Source of the DNA: Pantoea nemavictus
Lineage (GTDB): Bacteria; Pseudomonadota; Gammaproteobacteria; Enterobacterales; Enterobacteriaceae
Direction: 5' to 3'
Length of the DNA: 64,000 nt
NCBI RefSeq assembly: GCF_037479095.1
Contig: NZ_JBBGZW010000001.1
Span: forward strand, 3,658,001 to 3,722,000
Shown here: positions 29,575-32,693 of the stretch, one piece after another
How positions within the stretch are numbered: position 1 is the first letter of the stretch
Layout: the number at the start of each line of letters is the position of its first letter
The notes under the pieces: generated by a model
The model's database searches: none
What the model was told of the DNA's origin: nothing
The model's input: the letters and a program-made list of their open reading frames with translations, nothing else
Translations under genes and position numbers: made by a program

Positions 29575-29586
29575 ACTAATTTTAGT
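29575..29586. promoter_or_regulatory. Palindrome ACTAATTTTAGT upstream of sdiA
   Basis: ACTAA-TT-TTAGT is an inverted repeat identical to the 12-bp core of the 20-bp palindrome between sdiA and luxI. It lies about 90 bp upstream of the predicted sdiA transcription start. The shared core suggests a binding site for the same regulator, possibly SdiA itself; this is inference. Confidence 0.5.
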
Positions 29587-29642
29587 TAATGTCGATGCTA
29601 AAAATTTATCAATCTAATGATCATTTTCGATGAATAGGGTGA

Positions 29643-29671
29643 TTGAAAGTGCTTCAGAAAAATCCTATTCT
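29643..29671 (+). promoter_or_regulatory. Candidate sigma-70 promoter of sdiA
   Basis: TTGAAA (29643-29648), a 17-bp spacer and TATTCT (29666-29671) form a good promoter. It predicts a start near 29678 and a leader of about 210 nt before the sdiA ATG. Confidence 0.5.
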
Positions 29672-29887
29672 AATATGCTGAGGAATTAACGTTGTGAACC
29701 TGTTAAAAAAATAGCGCGAACTCACACTCTCCCATTAGGTTAACGCATTGACATTAAGAGAGTTATGCTTGCTGCTAGTAGATTTGCTCTCTTTTCAATC
29801 AATATTTTTTGTCTGACTAATTTATTTTTTTGCGTTAGCAACAATGAATTTCAGGATGTAAAAGCGTGAAACAGCGCTAAGGCAATA

Positions 29888-30610
29888 ATGACGACCGATA
29901 ATTATTTCGTCTGGCGAGGCGAAATGGAAAATGAATTTCTGGCGCTCAAAGAAGTGATGCAATTGAAATCGCTATTGCAAAAGCAGATTGAAGCGTTGGG
30001 TTTTGATTACTTCGCTTTTCTGGTTCAGCATCCGGTGCCTTTTACCCGGCCGCGGCTCTTTTTGTTTAGTAGTTATCCAGAAAGCTGGGTAAAACGCTAC
30101 GAAAGTGAGAACTATTATGCAGTCGATCCGGTGCTATTACTTTGCCAGCGACCAGGCCGCGGCGTGGAGTGGACGCGCGATTTATTTACCGGTGCGGGTA
30201 ATTTATGGGCGGAAGCCAACGCGGCAGGATTAATGAGTGGCTTTTCCTGCTCAGCAATGGCGCCAAATCGTACCATTGGTATATTATCTATTGCATCGAA
30301 GCTTCACAGTAAGACCCAACACTTACGCATCCAGCTAGAGGTGAAACTGCATCTTCTGGCGGAACTGAGTTTGCGCGTGCTGGAGCATCTGAACGATAGT
30401 TCTATGGTGGTTTTATCTAATGATTTTAGTCAGCGTGAGTTGGAAATTCTGAAATGGACGGCAGAAGGGAAAACCTCTGCGGAAATTTCACTTATTTTAG
30501 CCATATCTGAACATACGGTGAATTTTCACCAAAAGAATATGCAAAAGCGTTTTAATGTTTCCAATAAAACGCAGATTGCTTGTTACGCCGCAGCGGTTGG
30601 CCTGATATAG
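29888..30610 (+). CDS. sdiA: SdiA/PhzR-type LuxR quorum-sensing regulator
   Basis: This 240-residue LuxR protein follows E. coli SdiA closely (HPVPFTRPRLFLFSSYPESWVKRY; WTAEGKTSAEISLILAISEH; YAAAVGLI). The acyl-homoserine-lactone pocket residues Tyr63, Trp67, Tyr71 and Asp80 are all present. The C-terminal GerE-type HTH covers about residues 175-240. The position before yecF-uvrY-uvrC is that of E. coli sdiA. Unlike the E. coli orphan receptor, it is followed by a luxI gene, so it should have its own signal. In Pantoea and Erwinia this pair is known as PhzR/PhzI or ExpR/ExpI-like. AAGG precedes the ATG. Confidence 0.93.
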   Translation: MTTDNYFVWRGEMENEFLALKEVMQLKSLLQKQIEALGFDYFAFLVQHPVPFTRPRLFLFSSYPESWVKRYESENYYAVDPVLLLCQRPGRGVEWTRDLFTGAGNLWAEANAAGLMSGFSCSAMAPNRTIGILSIASKLHSKTQHLRIQLEVKLHLLAELSLRVLEHLNDSSMVVLSNDFSQRELEILKWTAEGKTSAEISLILAISEHTVNFHQKNMQKRFNVSNKTQIACYAAAVGLI

Positions 30611-30619
30611 CGAAAAGGC

Positions 30620-30639
30620 AACTACTAATTTTAGTAGTT
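30620..30639. promoter_or_regulatory. 20-bp perfect palindrome between sdiA and luxI, candidate lux-type box
   Basis: AACTACTAATTTTAGTAGTT is perfectly palindromic around a TT centre. Its inner 18 bp match the phz/lux-box type ACTAC-N8-GTAGT as I recall it. It begins 10 bp after the sdiA stop and ends 89 bp before the luxI ATG. It could be the operator of luxI. A hairpin role at the sdiA 3' end is the alternative, but there is no T-run. Confidence 0.6.
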
Positions 30640-30728
30640 CCTTCTGCCGTGTCAGTTGTCTACCCTGCGCGCAACGTTGCCAGGCTGGCTCAAAGAAATC
30701 ATTGCATACATGAGGATGTCAGAGGCGC

Positions 30729-31343
30729 ATGATGAAAGTAATTCAAACACAGCTTAAGGATATGCCGTCCTCACTGTTGGCAGAACTGGGAACGTATCGT
30801 TACAGCGTATTTGCGCGTGGCGAAGGGTGGTCAATTCCACCACGATTGAGTACCCCGGGGCAGGAGTATGACCGATTTGATCGCTCGGATGTCACATGGC
30901 TGATTGCCTGGAATGCGCGACAGGGTATTTGCGGTTGCGCGCGTTTATTACCCTGGCATGAACCTGAAGTGCCTGAAGGCTTTGTTCTGCCTTTTGATCA
31001 GGAAAAGGTCTGGGAGATGTCGCGCTTTTCGGCGCGCCTCGAAGTCGATGCGGAGCTGCCGCTGAGTATTTTGTGGCACTCGGTGCAGTTAGCCGAATTG
31101 AACGGCATGGAGTATTTGATCAGCTCGGCCACGCCGATGCTGGAGAAGATGTTTGAGCAGCACCAGGTGGTGTACGAGCCGCTGTCGCCAGGTCTGATCC
31201 AATCTGAAGATAATCTGTTCGCCATTCGCATCCCGGTTAATCAGCCGGCACTGGCGGAGAAGTATCGTGGTACGCGCCGCTTTAGTCCGGAAGAGGTATT
31301 GCCGTCGCTGGGCGTATCGGTGAACTGGCAATCACACAGCTAA
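30729..31343 (+). CDS. Acyl-homoserine-lactone synthase (LuxI family, RhlI/PhzI-like)
   Basis: This 204-residue LuxI-family enzyme makes N-acyl-homoserine lactone from SAM and an acyl-ACP. All family-invariant positions are recognisable: Arg24 and Phe28 (YRYSVF), Trp34, Asp48 and Asp51 (EYDRFD), Arg72 (GCARLLP), and Glu96 and Arg99 (WEMSRF). AELGTYRYSVF and RQGICGCARLLP resemble RhlI. The gene is intact and in the same direction as sdiA, 118 bp downstream. Codons 1 and 2 are both ATG. The acyl chain length cannot be read. E. coli lacks this gene at the locus. Confidence 0.92.
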   Translation: MMKVIQTQLKDMPSSLLAELGTYRYSVFARGEGWSIPPRLSTPGQEYDRFDRSDVTWLIAWNARQGICGCARLLPWHEPEVPEGFVLPFDQEKVWEMSRFSARLEVDAELPLSILWHSVQLAELNGMEYLISSATPMLEKMFEQHQVVYEPLSPGLIQSEDNLFAIRIPVNQPALAEKYRGTRRFSPEEVLPSLGVSVNWQSHS

Positions 31344-31375: not shown

Positions 31376-31603
31376 TTATTGACGGTAAGCGGTTTTGATC
31401 TGACGAATAGTATTGTTAAATACTTCCGCCTGCGGCTTATCGCCTAACGAAGCTTGCACATAACGCTCCATGTTGATGATCACCTTACCGGCATCGGCTT
31501 GACCCATCCCTTTCAGAATCAGCGTCACCATCATTTTCAGACAGGCTACTTCGTCTGCCAGCGCCTGCGTGTCTCGTGAAGTTGCAAAATCCTCATCACT
31601 CAT
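31376..31603 (-). CDS. yecF: YecF family protein (DUF2594)
   Basis: From MSDEDFATSRDTQALADEV the protein is 75 residues, matching E. coli YecF in length and in the block LADEVACLKMMVTLILKGMGQADAGKV and the ending IKTAYRQ. An AAGGAG site lies upstream of a doubled ATG; the second is preferred by spacing and homology. A longer frame from 31639 is unlikely. Function is unknown. Convergent with luxI. Confidence 0.9.
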   Translation of the reverse strand: MSDEDFATSRDTQALADEVACLKMMVTLILKGMGQADAGKVIINMERYVQASLGDKPQAEVFNNTIRQIKTAYRQ

Positions 31604-32033
31604 CATTGACTCCTTGGTGGTGTTACTCAGTGTTGACACATTCTTCCTGTGCGTAAAAAAGAGAGTATATCATATGGTTGTCAGCCGAATTTTAATCAAG
31701 CCGAAGCGGTGAACGGAGATTGCTTTTTAATTGTTCATTGCGCTATTTATCTGCAAACAGAAAAGACGTTTACGCGTTATTTATGCGGCAAATCGGCTAA
31801 ACGAATGAAAATGAGCTATAAATTATAACTTAATGATATTAGTCACAATTTCACATTTGGGTTTTCGCATGTTATTGCCATTTGTTAAAAAAACAGGATC
31901 AAAGCAATCTAATTGATTTGTATCATTTCATTTGAGATTTATCTGTGGCGATAGATGTTTTTTCCACCTGAAAACGGGTAAGATAACGGCTCTGTAATAT
32001 ATTTCCCTTTCTTAACCTGCGGAGTACGTCCCG
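31604..32033. other. Intergenic region between yecF and uvrY
   Basis: This AT-rich divergent region of about 430 bp presumably contains both promoters. I see no gene or strong repeat in it. Runs of A and T are frequent between 31800 and 31950. Confidence 0.6.
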
Positions 32034-32693
32034 TTGATCAGCCTGCTTCTTGTTGATGACCATGAACTGGTACGCGCCGGTATTCGCCGTATTCTGGAAG
32101 ATATGAAAGGACTTGTGATTGCCGGTGAAGTGGCCTGCGGTGAAGACGCGGTAAAATGGTGCCGTAACCATCCCGTCGACGTGGTGCTGATGGATATGAA
32201 CATGCCGGGTATCGGTGGTCTGGAAGCGACGCGTAAAATCGTCCGTTTTAATCCCGATATCCGCATCATCATGCTCACCATCCATACTGAAAATCCACTG
32301 CCTGCCAAAGTGATGCAGGCGGGAGCCGCCGGTTATCTCAGCAAAGGTGCCGCGCCGCAGGAGGTGGTAAGCGCCATCCGCTCGGTACACTCAGGTCAGC
32401 GCTACATTGCTTCGGATATCGCCCAGCAAATGGCGCTAAGCCAGATCGAGCCGCAAAAAGCCGAATCACCGTTCAGCTGTTTGTCGGAAAGGGAATTGCA
32501 GATTATGCTGATGATCACGCGCGGGCAGAAAGTGACGGAAATATCCGAACAACTTAGTCTCAGCCCGAAAACCGTTAACAGCTACCGTTATCGCATGTTC
32601 AGTAAGCTGAATATCAGTGGCGACGTAGAGTTAACGCATTTAGCCATTCGACATGGTCTATTCAATGCGGAGCCGTTAATCAGTAGTGAGTGA
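32034..32693 (+). CDS. uvrY: UvrY, response regulator of the BarA-UvrY (GacS-GacA) system
   Basis: This 219-residue FixJ/NarL-type regulator has the phospho-acceptor Asp54 in [20 protein letters not shown], preceded by the acidic pair in [14 protein letters not shown]-terminal HTH ([39 protein letters not shown]) follows. It starts with TTG, as I recall for E. coli. UvrY activates the csrB/csrC small RNAs, controlling carbon storage and biofilm genes. It overlaps uvrC by 8 bp. BarA is not in this window. Confidence 0.96.

Follow-up and report, generated by a model that had tools for sequence, protein, structure and literature searches.

A conserved rhl/phz-type box at the luxI promoter of Pantoea and Erwinia, a candidate ancestral SdiA box

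The rhl and las boxes of Pseudomonas aeruginosa carry a CT-N12-AG dyad, which the operator described below has in common with them, and its presumed regulator SdiA stands near RhlR in sequence. The closest described systems are the SdiA/ExpR/PhzR and ExpI/PhzI pairs of Erwinia and Pantoea, i.e. the same gene pair at the same place before sirA/uvrY, for which the gene order sdiA-luxI-yecF-uvrY-uvrC was already published in 2012, along with a proposed RhlR ancestry of SdiA and with oxoC6 as the reported product of ExpI and PhzI (PMC3474713). For SdiA of E. coli and Salmonella there is no agreed DNA motif, and the regulons of the species overlap little (PMC12086679, PMC11619404). The box proposed for E. 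coli, AAAAG(N8)GAAAA (PMC12086679, PMC7286202, PMC13209580), was still being used in a 2026 paper on Klebsiella oxytoca, according to which the required nucleotides are not yet pinned down (PMC13209580); a 2025 review, which leaves the question of an SdiA box unsettled, reports it to be absent at ler and at the Salmonella targets (PMC12086679). The box considered here is likewise proposed as an SdiA site but has a different sequence. Compared with the passages of the 2012 account considered here, the operator, its conservation and the loss of its core together with sdiA are additions (PMC3474713). Also new is that a matrix derived from luxI boxes matches upstream of gadW and fepE, on the basis of which we propose an ancestral SdiA box; in the literature searched, which lay mostly outside subscription papers, we found no earlier account of the luxI operator or of these matches.

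The locus lies in a window of 64,000 nucleotides, i.e. the whole stretch of Pantoea nemavictus DNA that was analysed (NZ_JBBGZW010000001.1, positions 3,658,001 to 3,722,000), and its features are given in Table 1.

Table 1. Features of the sdiA-luxI locus (positions within the window)
Feature	Position	Strand	Description
ACTAATTTTAGT	29575-29586	.	upstream of sdiA; not conserved, judged a coincidence outside the operator system
sdiA (phzR/expR)	29888-30610	+	240 aa AHL receptor / HTH regulator; Autoind_bind and GerE domains
luxI operator AACTACTAATTTTAGTAGTT	30620-30639	.	rhl/phz-type box, proposed SdiA box
conserved core promoter TTGTCTACCCTGCGC	30656-30670	+	from conservation in the intergenic alignment
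-10-like TACCCT	30661-30666	+	inferred
ACATGAGGATGT in luxI leader	30708-30719	+	CsrA-like GGA site, lead only
luxI (phzI/expI)	30729-31343	+	204 aa AHL synthase; PF00765, 27.7 bits (cut-off 24)
yecF (DUF2594)	31376-31639	-	context gene
uvrY (sirA)	32034-32693	+	response regulator, context gene

The gene order is sdiA-luxI-yecF-uvrY-uvrC. A preliminary description of this DNA had read an intact AHL synthase between sdiA and yecF, had seen the conserved LuxI residues and four SdiA pocket residues in the translations, and had noted that the pairing of sdiA with a cognate luxI in Erwinia and Pantoea was on record; in each of these respects it was right. LuxI belongs to its family by a PF00765 score above the cut-off and by the conserved R, F, W, E/D, R and E-S-R residues; the motifs YRYSVF, GW, E-x-D-x-x-D, ARLLP and WEMSRF can be read in its translation. 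SdiA is placed in the LuxR-type SdiA family by its AHL-binding and GerE domains, the position of its gene before uvrY/sirA and its ligand pocket, in which Tyr63, Trp67, Tyr71 and Asp80 are identical to those of E. coli K-12 SdiA. The DNA-binding domains of these two proteins share 48 of 65 residues, with an almost identical recognition helix, and the closest solved structures to the window's SdiA are RhlR variants and SdiA. The window's genome encodes a single AHL-type LuxR and a single LuxI, and the luxI and sdiA proteins of Pantoea sp. RIT-PI-b are 100% identical to those of the window. Of the 197 genomes searched, 69 have a luxI match; within the genus it is 58/60, a count taking in the window and a pseudogene (L060, G014) from a 2.4 Mb genome in which luxI and sdiA survive only as fragments. 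The luxI start reads ATGATG (30729-30734), and since the second ATG (30732) is spaced better from AGAGG, LuxI may be 203 aa long.

The luxI box starts 9 nt past the sdiA stop codon. It had been described as a 20-bp perfect palindrome, a description that has to be amended: 18 of the 20 bases are symmetric, in arms of 9+9, and the central TT is unpaired. Its likeness to lux/phz boxes was upheld by the CT-N12-AG dyad, by its preservation in about 80 distinct loci and by the fit to the 18-mer phz-box consensus of P. chlororaphis PhzR (PMC7048289), which is matched at 16 positions in the window and at all 18 in L106 and L125 (levels reached by 0.23% and 0.0016% of window positions, respectively), and at 16-18 in 74 of the 78 tabulated sites. 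This fit is in keeping with the 2012 proposal of an RhlR ancestry (PMC3474713), although the Pantoea centre is AT-richer than the phz-box, which moreover belongs to another regulator in another genus (PMC7048289). The palindrome is kept across Pantoea, Mixta, Erwinia and Winslowiella. In an intergenic alignment of 75 distinct sequences (from these genera, Izhakiella and other relatives; identical sequences were counted once, and L054, L109, L111, L116 and L119 come in addition), the information content is 1.1-2.0 bits at box positions 1-8 and 13-20; the box counts exclude L059 and L060-L062, and the boxes of L032 and L056 were anchored by eye. In 26 of 36 genus genomes searched, the window's own included, there is a single strict dyad AACTACN8GTAGTT, always at the luxI promoter; the other 10, from which it is absent, have variants or no intact pair. 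Judged from the alignment, the conservation of the palindrome is beyond chance, and the operator is a well-supported new case of the rhl/phz kind of box as far as sequence can tell. Compensatory evolution was discarded as support for the box, as there is only one paired switch of symmetric bases on the tree, next to two one-sided changes. The luxI promoter gave no match in a plasmid collection.

Behind the box, 13 of 15 bases carry 0.05-0.85 bits, after which GTTGTCTACCCTGCGC is again almost fixed (75 distinct sequences), which leaves two islands of conservation, namely the arms of the box and the core promoter. In 74/75 distinct loci the box is followed, at a spacing of exactly 21 nt, by the start of a TAnnnT hexamer, a fixed distance that adds to the case for a lux/phz-like operator, as does the loss of the core where sdiA was lost (see below). 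From the centre of the dyad to the first base of the -10-like hexamer it is 31.5 nt, and the box overlaps the place where a -35 region would be expected. In class II LuxR-type promoters the box is centred near -42.5 relative to the start site; the box-to-hexamer distance would fit this spacing, and a start site near 30673 would put the box centre near -43. By this geometry, box and hexamer may represent an operator together with a -10 element, at a class II-like distance.

The luxI operator is most likely an SdiA box, and it is quite probable that SdiA controls luxI through it and that it represents the ancestral SdiA box. The CT-N12-AG dyad would be bound by a dimer of SdiA, with the AHL from LuxI favouring this, and luxI would most likely be activated, resulting in autoinduction; binding, AHL requirement and sign are all inferred. 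SdiA might also bind the box to repress luxI, in the manner of EsaR, and be released by AHL, in line with the overlap with the expected -35 region and with the repression of some other genes by SdiA (PMC2812512, PMC11619404). Yet we consider this unlikely, in view of the class II-like distance and the kinship with RhlR, both of which favour activation. The case of gadW, which has a box similarly far from its start codon and is activated, points the same way (PMC7286202).

A natural test of the operator's purpose is offered by four lineages in which sdiA is missing or interrupted by several stops and luxI is still open, namely Erwinia sp. OLFS4 (L119), E. endophytica (L109), E. psidii (L111) and a stink-bug symbiont (L056). 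In 4/4 of these loci the CT-N12-AG core is either broken or missing; it is kept in 73 of the 75 loci with an intact sdiA and broken or gone in the other 2 (Fisher p = 1e-5, treating loci as independent despite their kinship). A tree-based test, in which L109, L111 and L119 were coded as sdiA-less, L116 as boxless and L056 and L032 as having both, yielded three independent pairs (L109, L111, L119), all in the expected direction and too few for significance. The two exceptions with intact sdiA are L116 (Pantoea sp. 1.19), in which the box is missing and the recognition helix has TVNYHQ in place of TVNFHQ, and, with a degenerate box, L032 (P. agglomerans NBRC 102470). L054, whose truncated SdiA has 222 aa and whose box is intact, is in neither count; L034 was counted as sdiA-intact despite one stop in its translation (its initial alignment started from residue 14). 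The synthases of the four sdiA-broken lineages are orphans, the reverse of an SdiA solo.

A symmetric weight matrix, for which luxI boxes alone were used (35 distinct ones, or 63 once reverse complements are added), was run over nine stretches around chosen SdiA-linked genes of E. coli K-12 (64 kb in total). The best score, 17.7 bits, belongs to AACTGCCAGATTTGGTAGGA in the gadW-gadX region, and the next best is 6.0; 0.0004-0.002 matches as good as this one are expected in about 3.2 kb. The match, at 3664701-3664720 of NC_000913.3, is centred 92.5 nt ahead of the gadW start codon, the luxI box 99.5 nt ahead of its own. It is kept, with a changed centre, in 2/2 Escherichia-like genomes aligned, which are of one genus and in this region 88-91% identical to K-12. 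The sole AHL-responsive fusion to emerge from an unbiased K-12 screen was gadW (PMC2812512). A response to SdiA plus AHL is also reported for a gadW fragment spanning -258 to -1, by a mechanism whose directness the authors call unclear, with no AHL response from a gadY fragment (PMC7286202). The matrix scan gave no comparable match at K-12 fepE, gadE, hdeA, fliE, ftsQ P2, uvrY, menF or qmcA; most SdiA-linked promoters scanned, several reported SdiA targets among them, are thus without the box.

In Enterobacter cloacae, fepE depends on SdiA and AHL (PMC4444967), which is why this gene was taken up after gadW. Among 295 family genomes, 187 had a match to it; the best 30 were taken and 27 counted, leaving aside L278, L281 and L292 (short locus or missing start), which have no box match. 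Boxes of 12-20 bits were found at -110 to -141 in 7 of these 27 upstream regions, against an expectation of 0.07 (64% AT), and the remaining 20 are without a strong box, those of Escherichia-like genomes being without any. The seven come from four genus codes, genomes of one genus not being independent of each other, and they may not be E. cloacae, the species of the regulatory data. A primer sequence from PMC4444967, used as a marker of E. cloacae, matched none of the 295 genomes. In the rest of the fepE loci, 2 of 78,471 positions reach 8 bits, and only 1 of 500 column-permuted matrices equalled the result. In E. coli, SdiA is reported to repress fepE without a need for AHL (PMC11619404).

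These matches at SdiA-regulated promoters in genera without luxI go beyond what the preliminary description had claimed, and on balance we lean towards the view that the Pantoea/Erwinia luxI operator is the ancestral SdiA box, of which an AACTRC-N8-GYAGTT-type dyad persisted or arose at gadW and fepE. The box would have been inherited together with an RhlR/RhlI-like pair, luxI-less lineages would have lost their luxI copy, and the same kind of box would serve at gadW in Escherichia and at fepE in several other genera. If so, the eavesdropper SdiA still reads the operator of a lost synthase, and its targets without a box are indirect or bound otherwise. The species that keep the synthase show the operator under selection, and thereby offer a concrete motif with base-level predictions for K-12 gadW and a means to tell direct from indirect SdiA targets.

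Recognition by another GerE-type regulator, such as UvrY (which is encoded nearby and has a GerE domain) or an Rcs protein, seems very unlikely to us: the core was lost with sdiA although L111 retains the uvrY reading frame, the genome is without a second AHL-type LuxR, and the matrix matches lie at SdiA-regulated genes. Scarcely any weight can be given to an RNA hairpin, e.g. at the 3' end of the sdiA transcript, in place of a DNA site; it would account for the position just past the sdiA stop, and a terminator of sdiA would likewise decay along with the gene, yet no T-run follows the palindrome, its distance to the luxI core promoter is fixed and the motif also lies upstream of gadW and fepE.

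The proposed SdiA box at luxI had been paired with a second site, i.e. the 12-mer that forms its core (30624-30635) and recurs, exactly as had been reported, 301 nt ahead of the sdiA ATG. An exact copy of any box 12-mer arises in only 35 of 20,000 Markov-1 resamples of the 567 bases concerned. Among 113 loci with sdiA upstream sequence (which include one species under two labels), this copy is present in 2, the window and Pantoea sp. RIT-PI-b, i.e. in one lineage; in other close relatives the left half of the site differs and the right half lies within a longer conserved stretch. It has no CT...AG core, its matrix score of -7.6 bits is ordinary (p about 0.48 for the region), and the pattern CTRCN8GYAG does not occur within 420 nt upstream of sdiA in 58 loci. 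With its core absent and its sequence unconserved in luxI-bearing relatives, it does not qualify as an rhl/phz-type box, and the copy is most likely a coincidence. Conservation among luxI-keeping strains, named beforehand as the test for both sites, thus speaks for the one at luxI and against the one at sdiA. That SdiA binds both and controls sdiA and luxI jointly, in the autoinduction loop originally suggested, hardly merits any credence despite the rarity of the shared 12-mer, given its presence in 2/113 loci, its unconserved left half, its missing core and ordinary score, and the 58 loci without the pattern.

Sites with one mismatch to the dyad were also found in the genus, among the matches listed near csrB, a PAS-MCP gene, fliC and lipoprotein genes. 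A control pattern was commoner in most genomes, so that by their number these extra sites are no evidence. The csrB site is present in 5 of the 51 upstream regions read, all in a single group, and the PAS-MCP site in 8 of 30 (two degenerate copies included, a further partial one not counted), all in one Pantoea group (L187-L194); both are absent from the window's genome, and L202 and L212 showed no true upstream region in this reading. The one extra site of the window's genome (L152) lies inside a long reading frame. A search of 295 family genomes with the strict pattern returned 7 sites, spread over 6 genomes (none for the control), which were rejected: four are embedded in longer GC-rich inverted repeats that separate two genes, one comes after the end of a gene and two are inside genes. 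Just after sdiA, a CT-N12-AG match occurs only in E. coli and L146 among 20 luxI-less loci read; a box remnant was rejected, L146 being without resemblance and the E. coli stretch falling within a shared TTCTGCGTGYCAGAC element. This hairpin-like element is seen just past the sdiA stop in L121 (2044-2110) and in several of L132-L151, where Pantoea has the luxI box. Upstream of a flagellin gene, L167 and L168 carry CCTACTATATTTAGTAGT.

In the luxI leader, ACATGRGGATGT precedes the Shine-Dalgarno sequence. The GGA motif there, which by the CsrA consensus we take to resemble a CsrA site, is kept, as judged by eye, in 53/53 Pantoea-type and 14/16 Erwinia-type leaders aligned. With csrB present in the window's genome, luxI translation could be tied to the UvrY-CsrB-CsrA pathway, whose regulator UvrY is encoded next to the luxI locus.
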